This document shows, piece by piece, positions 28,296 to 59,598 of a stretch of DNA of 64,000 nt (the stretch's first letter is position 1; each line of letters begins with the position of its first letter). Position numbers and translations under genes: made by a program. The stretch is from positions 62,001 through 126,000 of the forward strand of contig DASYCE010000008.1 of the NCBI GenBank assembly GCA_036500345.1, in the 5' to 3' direction. The notes under the pieces are model-generated. The model saw nothing but the letters and a program-made list of their open reading frames with translations, was not told the DNA's origin and did not search any database. The DNA comes from Gemmatimonadales bacterium (lineage in GTDB: Bacteria; Gemmatimonadota; Gemmatimonadetes; Gemmatimonadales; GWC2-71-9).

Positions 28296-29393
28296 TTAGC
28301 GGAGCAGCGTCAGTACCTGCGCTGCCGACTGGTTGGCCTGCGAAATCATCGCCATGCCAGCCTGCTGCAGGATGTTGAACTTCGTGAACGCCGTCGTTTC
28401 CTGCGCCATGTTGGCGTCGCGGATCGTCGACTCGGCGGCGGTGGTGTTCTGCTGGATCGTGTCGACGTTGGTCTGCGCGTAGCTGATCCGGCTCTCGGCG
28501 GCGCCGATCGCGCCGATCGCCGAGTTGACGTGGTCGGTCGCGGAGTCGATCGCCGTGAGTGCTGCCTGGGCGTTCGCCGCGGTGGTCACGTTCGAGGTGC
28601 TGATACCAAGAGTCGACAGCGTCAGGTCGACCGAGCTCAGAGAGATCAGGTCGGAGCTGGCGTAGTGACCGCTGGAGCTCACCATGAAGTTGCCGCCGCT
28701 GCCGGCATTGATCGTCAGCGCGCCGATGGCGGTGTCACGGACGTACCCGGAATCGGTGTTCACCTTGACCCCGAACTCCGAGAAGTTGAGCGTCTGCGCA
28801 CCGGCCACATCGGCCACCGTCTGCGACACGCCACCCTTGGTCATCGTGATCGTGTGGTTCGTGGTGTCGGCCGTCAGCGCGTAGGTGCCCGCGGCATTTC
28901 CCGTGAAGGTCGTGCCGCTCGACGGAACGCCGGTGACCGAGAACAGCGCGCTCGACGTGTTGAGCGACGCACCGAACGAACCGTCGATCAGGTTGCTCCC
29001 CTGATACTGGGTCGTCGCGGTGATGCGGGTGATTTCCTGCAGCAGCTGCTGGAACTCCGCATCGAGCTTGTCGCGCTGGGATCCGATCGTGTCCGAGTTG
29101 GATTCCGTCGCGAGCTCCTTGAGGCGGTCAAGGATGGTGGAGATGGTGTTGGTGGCGCCGTCGGCGATCTGCAGCATCGAGTTCGCCTGCGAGGCGTTGC
29201 GGGAGGCGGCAGAAAGGCTCTGCGCCTGCCCACGGAGCTTGTTGGCGATCGCGAGGCCTGCCGCGTCATCTCCCGAGCTGTTGATGCGGAAACCGGACGA
29301 CAGGCGGGCAATTTCCTTGTTCATGTTCATGCCCGACGCGGTCGTGTTCAACAGCGCGATATTCGCCCCAAGATTGGTCTGGATACTCGACAT
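28296..29393 (-). CDS. fliC: Flagellin
   Basis: A 365-residue filament subunit. The N-terminal D0/D1 domain is highly conserved (NTTASGMNMNKEIARLSSGF, then SSGDDAAGLAIANKLRGQ near residue 40, and ATTQYQGSNLIDG near 127). The C-terminal D1/D0 starts near 285 (ESRISYAQTNVDTIQQNT) and ends AAQVLTLLR. The central variable region is small and Thr/Ser/Gly-rich, giving a lean filament. A strong ribosome site (GGGAGGA) lies seven bases before the ATG and is inside a predicted CsrA target. Transcription is predicted from a FliA-type promoter at 29469-29495. Confidence 0.97.
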   Translation of the reverse strand: MSSIQTNLGANIALLNTTASGMNMNKEIARLSSGFRINSSGDDAAGLAIANKLRGQAQSLSAASRNASQANSMLQIADGATNTISTILDRLKELATESNSDTIGSQRDKLDAEFQQLLQEITRITATTQYQGSNLIDGSFGASLNTSSALFSVTGVPSSGTTFTGNAAGTYALTADTTNHTITMTKGGVSQTVADVAGAQTLNFSEFGVKVNTDSGYVRDTAIGALTINAGSGGNFMVSSSGHYASSDLISLSSVDLTLSTLGISTSNVTTAANAQAALTAIDSATDHVNSAIGAIGAAESRISYAQTNVDTIQQNTTAAESTIRDANMAQETTAFTKFNILQQAGMAMISQANQSAAQVLTLLR

Positions 29394-29400
29394 GCGGTGT

Positions 29401-29438
29401 TCCTCCCTAAACGTGGACCCGGGGCGTCCGTGCCCCGG
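29401..29438 (-). promoter_or_regulatory. Predicted CsrA target in the fliC leader: hairpin loop ACGGAC plus GGA in the Shine-Dalgarno
   Basis: In the minus-strand leader a 7-bp stem (CCGGGGC with GCCCCGG, 29438-29419) presents the hexaloop ACGGAC, the classic CsrA GGA-in-loop target. A second GGA pair lies in the Shine-Dalgarno (29407-29401). The two GGA motifs are about 25 bases apart, which would let one CsrA dimer bridge them and block ribosomes. CsrA and its antagonist FliW are both encoded nearby. Confidence 0.65.
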
Positions 29439-29468
29439 CGATGCGACCCGATATGGTCGCTCCGCCCG

Positions 29469-29495
29469 TTATCGGTTGAGGAACCCCGACCATGA
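29469..29495 (-). promoter_or_regulatory. Sigma-28 (FliA) promoter of fliC
   Basis: Minus strand: -35 TCAT (29495-29492), 15-base spacer, -10 ACCGATAA (29476-29469). The -10 differs from the FliA consensus GCCGATAA by one base. The predicted start gives a leader of about 70 bases. Confidence 0.75.
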
Positions 29496-29512: not shown

Positions 29513-29941
29513 TCAGGCTGGCTGCAGGAGGGTGGGGAGATCGAACGGCACCGCGGTCCGGCCGACTGCATCGGTGCGAATGAACTGATGGCCGGCGCGG
29601 CTCACCGGATCGATGATCACCGGCGCCTGGAGATTCGCCGTCGCTGTTTCATCCTGCGCCGGCAGCGTGACGATCGCATACGCGTCGCCGCCGATCTCGC
29701 CGAGCGGCTCGCTCAGCGCACCCCACCGGATGAGGAGGAAGGCGAGCGCCGGTGCATCGAGCGACTGGAGCCAGGCGAGCGCCCGTGTCTGCGCCGGCAG
29801 CAGCGCGAAGTGCGTCGAGTTGGGGAAGCCTGGCAAGCCGTCGGCGAAGTGGACCATCCGGGAAGGCGACACCTGGATGGTACCAAAGAGCCGGGTGACA
29901 AAGGTCGGTTCGATCGAGGCGGGGCGGATGGCAGCGCTCAT
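29513..29941 (-). CDS. fliW: Flagellar assembly factor FliW
   Basis: A 142-residue protein that binds flagellin and, when flagellin is scarce, binds CsrA and relieves its translational block on flagellin mRNA. Family features are TRLFGTIQV near residue 16, FADGLPGFPNSTHFALLP near 32 and the closing segment RTDAVGRTAVPFDL. Its ATG overlaps the flgL stop by four bases, and fliC lies just downstream, the same neighbourhood as in Firmicutes. Confidence 0.9.
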   Translation of the reverse strand: MSAAIRPASIEPTFVTRLFGTIQVSPSRMVHFADGLPGFPNSTHFALLPAQTRALAWLQSLDAPALAFLLIRWGALSEPLGEIGGDAYAIVTLPAQDETATANLQAPVIIDPVSRAGHQFIRTDAVGRTAVPFDLPTLLQPA

Positions 29942-59343: not shown

Positions 59344-59598
59344 ATGCTCGTCCTGAACCGGAAGGTTGGCGAGGCGATCGTCGTCGACGGCGACATCCGG
59401 ATCGTGGTGATCTCGTCGGATCGTCGCGGCGTGCGCCTCGGGATCGAAGCGCCGCAGTCGACCAATATCCTGCGTGAGGAGTTGTTGAAGGAAGTTGAAG
59501 CGGAGAATCAGCGTGCCGGCGCCGGTGCCGCGGCGCTCGATTGGGTCGAGCGCCTGGCGCCGCTACCCGCTGCTCCGCCCGGAGCGGACCCGGTCTGA
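59344..59598 (+). CDS. csrA: Carbon storage regulator CsrA
   Basis: An 84-residue RNA-binding protein, longer than the usual 55-65 because of an Ala/Pro-rich C-terminal tail. The core [20 protein letters not shown] has Leu4 and Arg6, [20 protein letters not shown] keeps the second RNA-contact Arg (usual motif VHREE, here ILREE). It should bind GGA sites in fliC and possibly flgL leaders and be antagonised by FliW. Being last in the flgK operon ties it to late assembly. Its 3' end overlaps the convergent kinase gene by 36 bases. Confidence 0.93.

Follow-up and report, generated by a model that had tools for sequence, protein, structure and literature searches.

In Campylobacter jejuni, CsrA represses the flagellin gene flaA through two ANGGA stem-loops whose GGAs lie 21 nt apart (Dugar et al. 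2016, PMC4894983); the optimum GGA spacing quoted in the same paper is 18 nt. The ANGGAN hexaloop is the structure observed in CsrA/RsmE-RNA complexes (PMC7652899). In Bacillus subtilis, the hag leader has two CsrA sites, one of them over the Shine-Dalgarno (SD) sequence, as described in PMC7652899 (relaying Yakhnin 2007 and Mukherjee 2011) and PMC6529632. With regard to the protein, R44 of CsrA serves RNA binding, and V51 and N55 serve FliW binding (PMC7829508).

The fliC leader beside its described counterparts

We analyzed a 64-kb stretch of DNA from a Gemmatimonadales genome (the window), in which a flagellin gene, fliC, is preceded by the leader features collected in Table 1. The sequence-only reading had placed a 7-bp stem with the hexaloop ACGGAC (SL1) at 29438-29419, and a second GGA within the fliC SD. 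The stem-loop proved right to the base, the second GGA is present, and all of the coordinates given for them were accurate. On the minus strand, SL1 is made up of CCGGGGC (29438-29432), the hexaloop (29431-29426), and GCCCCGG (29425-29419). GGA occurs twice in the SD, at 29406-29404 and at 29403-29401. The first of these is the candidate site 2; it is separated from site 1 by 23 nt, first G to first G, a distance that one CsrA dimer could bridge. Further upstream is a promoter motif that we take to be sigma-28-like, going by the FliA consensus. Given its position, transcription of fliC probably starts near 29463, so that the leader would be about 70 nt long and would open with a 5' hairpin, which lies at the predicted mRNA 5' end or close to it, ahead of both candidate CsrA sites.

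Table 1. Positions in the window of the fliC leader features and of the fliC, fliW, and csrA genes.
Feature	Position	Strand	Basis
Sigma-28-like promoter (presumed), TCATGGTC-N11-ACCGATAA	29495-29469	-	Sequence; loose pattern in 66/70 leaders
5' hairpin GCGACC-AUAUCG-GGUCGC, loop without GGA	29460-29443	-	Fold prediction
SL1, predicted CsrA-type site 1	29438-29419	-	Sequence; covariation, 69 leaders
Candidate SL2, GTTT-AGGGAG-GAAC around the SD	29412-29399	-	Alignment covariation
SD AGGGAGGA with candidate CsrA site 2	29408-29401	-	Sequence
fliC, flagellin, 365 aa (start codon ATG, 29393-29391)	28296-29393	-	Pfam Flagellin_N and Flagellin_C above cut-off; translation
fliW, start overlapping the flgL stop	29513-29941	-	Pfam PF02623, 67.3 bits vs 25
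csrA, 84 aa, single copy in the genome, immediately after flgK	59344-59598	+	TIGR00202 equivalog above cut-off

The arrangement resembles that of C. jejuni flaA, in which two neighboring stem-loops also present ANGGA loops and the second lies over the ribosome-binding site (a position held here by the candidate SL2). The GGA spacing is 21 nt there and 23 nt here, compensatory changes occur within the group in both cases, and fliW lies apart from csrA here as it does in C. jejuni and the Epsilonproteobacteria (PMC4894983). However, the flaA leader measures 45 nt, whereas the one predicted here is longer and has an extra 5' hairpin; SL2 is weaker than its C. jejuni counterpart; and CsrA binding, shown in C. 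jejuni, is a prediction here. The likeness to B. subtilis hag, as the cited papers describe that leader, consists of the two-site layout and of a fliW gene just upstream of the flagellin gene, with function again predicted in our case. B. subtilis csrA adjoins fliW, unlike the csrA of the window.

The layout equals that of C. jejuni flaA and of two-site hag, and we consider the same partner switch to be the best explanation: the fliC leader would be a two-site CsrA target, controlled by a CsrA-FliW partner switch that couples flagellin translation to export. We put the probability of this reading at roughly 0.88, counting against it the FliW segment that is missing in this genus, the weakness of SL2, and the separation of csrA from fliW. 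In the mechanism that we infer, one pocket of the CsrA dimer would hold the SL1 hexaloop as a high-affinity anchor while the other would hold the SD GGA, and a dimer bridging both sites would block the ribosome and repress fliC translation. FliW, supplied by the flgL-fliW unit, would bind CsrA and release the fliC message, and cytoplasmic flagellin would in turn sequester FliW. While flagellin export is running, FliW would be free and fliC translated; when export stops, flagellin would build up and take FliW, and CsrA would shut down fliC translation.

CsrA and FliW proteins and their distribution

Both CsrA and FliW had been described by the sequence-only reading as encoded in the same cluster as fliC. 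This holds for fliW, which lies directly upstream of fliC (fliD and fliS come after fliC), and only loosely for csrA, which is about 30 kb away in the same flagellar region. The window CsrA has the RNA-binding arginine, R44, together with a C-terminal extension, and it retains V51 and N55. In 23 CsrA proteins from relatives, R44 and a V or I at position 51 are each found in 23/23 and N55 in 19/23; position 55 is a threonine in 4 of the 23 (L281, L283, L284, and L296).

The FliW protein is more unusual. Pfam matches it in two stretches because a segment of ~15 to 20 residues, the DPFxFFxGY-like region, is missing from FliW in this genus (the window protein, 29516-29941, and those at L034:7752-8183 and L035:1570-2001); the other FliW proteins in the alignment have this segment. 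Its absence means that contacts with CsrA or with flagellin could differ. When the window FliW was compared with the NCBIfam FliW equivalogs, none reached its cut-off. These features and the lack of linkage between csrA and fliW are what favor an alternative in which CsrA still represses fliC through both sites, whereas FliW of this genus either does not antagonize it or works in another way, and the export coupling fails. We regard this as unlikely: the protein scores well above the Pfam FliW cut-off, and its AlphaFold model (pLDDT 92.9) matches solved FliW structures (TM ~0.72 to 5dmd), including a chain of the FliW-CsrA complex 5dmb, while the FliW-contacting V51 and N55 are kept in CsrA.

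The distribution of the proteins also argues against this alternative. Among the 298 genomes of the phylum, FliW was found in 74, flagellin in 77, and CsrA in 78; FliW and CsrA occur together in 73 genomes, and all three in 72. Co-occurrence of FliW with flagellin gave a Fisher P of 1.6e-63, a value computed on species counts that were not corrected for phylogeny. In the genus to which the window belongs, three genomes encode flagellin, FliW, and CsrA, and four encode none of them.

Conservation and covariation of the leader hairpins

Flagellin genes were gathered from the 298 phylum genomes, yielding 70 class-level leaders from flagellate members, of which 69 were distinct and made up the SL1 alignment. 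All 70 class-level fliC leaders contain an A-N-GGA-N hexaloop hairpin of at least 5 bp, with its GGA at -33 to -45. In one of the phylum loci, L160 (G278), the hairpin is present and the start is damaged. Covariation of the stem in related genomes, which had been suggested as a check on the sequence-only reading, was found in this set, and the conservation of stem and GGA on which that reading depended was found as well. The five inner pairs of SL1 are formed in 345/345 cells, with two-sided changes at each of the five, and the six-pair covariation score was 0.586; shuffled alignments gave 0.249 (0/500), and slid partners did not exceed 0.150. The shuffles ignore the relatedness of the leaders, which the slid controls preserve. 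The stem variants include GGAGC/GCTCC, GGGGA/TCCCC, GAGGC/GCCTC, GAGGGA/TCCCTC, and CCGGGGC/GCCCCGG, several of which recur across genera.

A conserved hairpin could, in principle, stabilize the mRNA in a general way or act as a ribosome-standby structure, or it could be bound by a different RNA-binding protein; the GGA would then be incidental. Hairpins at 5' ends can stabilize mRNAs, and the fliC leader does have a further 5' hairpin. Yet the loop A and the GGA are invariant in 69/69 distinct leaders while the stem sequence varies freely, and the hexaloop hairpin precedes only 1/263 other SD-bearing gene starts, the exception being the fliD gene of a relative. In addition, the motif is missing from class genomes that have no flagellin, FliW, or CsrA, bar one marginal match. 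On these grounds we judge a role unconnected with CsrA to be very improbable.

The fliD hairpin is worth describing in its own right. It lies at L052:5839 (minus strand), before the fliD of G079 (Pfam FliD_N), and consists of a perfect GCCTCC-ACGGAC-GGAGGC with its GGA at -32; fliD is possibly a second CsrA target in that genome.

SL1 was present in every MFE or centroid fold of the fliC leader that we tried, and a search of the leader against Rfam matched no family. The folding energy of the leader is unremarkable overall (z of -0.5 to -1.8), and, because these z-scores are not significant, the case for SL1 rests on its conservation. The hexaloop hairpin appeared in 8/3500 dinucleotide shuffles (0.23%) and in 22/4380 random segments of the same loci (0.5%). 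The 64-kb window has four A-N-GGA-N hexaloop hairpins of at least 5 bp on its two strands, of which only SL1 precedes a gene start. Judged from the alignments, SL1 is more than chance: the folding energy would suit a chance hairpin, but its conservation, its position, and above all the covariation and shuffle nulls refute that reading, to which we give almost no weight.

We are more cautious about SL2, the hairpin around the second site of the proposed two-site target. The second GGA overlaps the SD, and the spacing from the SL1 GGA to the first SD GGA is 21 to 27 nt across the 70 leaders. In about half of the leaders the SD GGA is able to sit in a hexaloop hairpin of its own, as in GTTA-AGGGAG-TAAC (L034) and CTGTAA-AGGGAG-TTACAG (L068), and in the window SL2 has three Watson-Crick pairs and one G-U. 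The SL2 helix gave a covariation score of 0.321 versus 0.127 for shuffled alignments (0/500). The SD GGA may thus itself be presented in a weak second hexaloop hairpin, which we treat as a candidate because only 62% of the cells pair and because the window version of SL2 is weak and does not appear in the MFE fold.

A covariance model of the leader ranked the window leader as the best match in its genome (54.5 bits, E 4.6e-9). The second match in that genome (30.7 bits, L254) was set aside as noise, as it falls within a long open reading frame, on the antisense strand. Across 91 class genomes, the only matches were flagellin leaders of flagellate members, the L254 noise, and one marginal match from a genome that has no flagellin. 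Since the model requires the layout of a flagellin leader, CsrA targets of other kinds may exist.

Natural variants, other phyla, and the role of CsrA

Several lineages depart from the common leader. In family f5, several leaders (L139, L141, L142, L143, and L135) have an extra A-N-GGA-N hairpin 17 to 22 nt 5' of SL1, which brings the number of CsrA-type sites to as many as three. Upstream hairpins are common in the relatives generally, and their place and loop are heterogeneous, for which reason we dropped the 5' hairpin as a conserved site outside f5. Family f11 contains four flagellin clades, three of which have the hairpin. The MPGLSINT clade is without it in 5/5 genomes (the deep-branching f11 paralogues L162:8466, L163:3509, L165:409, L166:461, and L167:408), and its flagellin seems to escape CsrA control. 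The hairpin is also missing from a flagellin-like gene of G248, a genome with neither FliW nor CsrA.

Beyond the phylum, many Bacillota loci have the hairpin, as do some loci of Bdellovibrionota and Acidobacteriota, at positions of about -33 to -46; among the flagellin genes fetched, 37/119 have any hexaloop GGA hairpin, and most have none. The likeness to Bacillus that the sequence-only reading had drawn was borne out by the Bacillota loci, many of which place this hairpin equally far upstream (-34 to -46). For B. subtilis itself, the hag layout is taken from the cited papers.

In the open-access papers searched, we found no report of CsrA or FliW in Gemmatimonadota. The kind of switch is already known; what is new, and well supported, is its predicted occurrence in Gemmatimonadota. 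Judging by the leaders and the proteins together, it is very probable that the flagellin feedback switch of Bacillus and Campylobacter also works in this phylum. The covariation evidence extends to Gemmatimonadota a switch that had been described in a handful of model species. Flagellin paralogues with and without the hairpin provide a natural control, in which flagellins that would be regulated can be set against those that would be exempt.

A broader reading, which we offer tentatively and think somewhat less probable than its opposite, is that CsrA in this phylum is essentially a one-message regulator devoted to flagellin, and that flagellin control, not carbon storage, is an ancient function of CsrA. 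On this reading, csrA is gained and lost together with the flagellum, and no message other than that of flagellin has a target of such an architecture. If it is true, the third hairpin in f5 and the exempt flagellin paralogue in f11 would be lineage-specific elaborations of that control. The origin of CsrA as a flagellar regulator has been raised before (PMC4894983), and the hairpin shared with leaders of Bacillota and of some Bdellovibrionota and Acidobacteriota would support ancient flagellin control. Because CsrA, FliW, and flagellin co-occur so tightly, a flagellar origin of CsrA can be tested directly.
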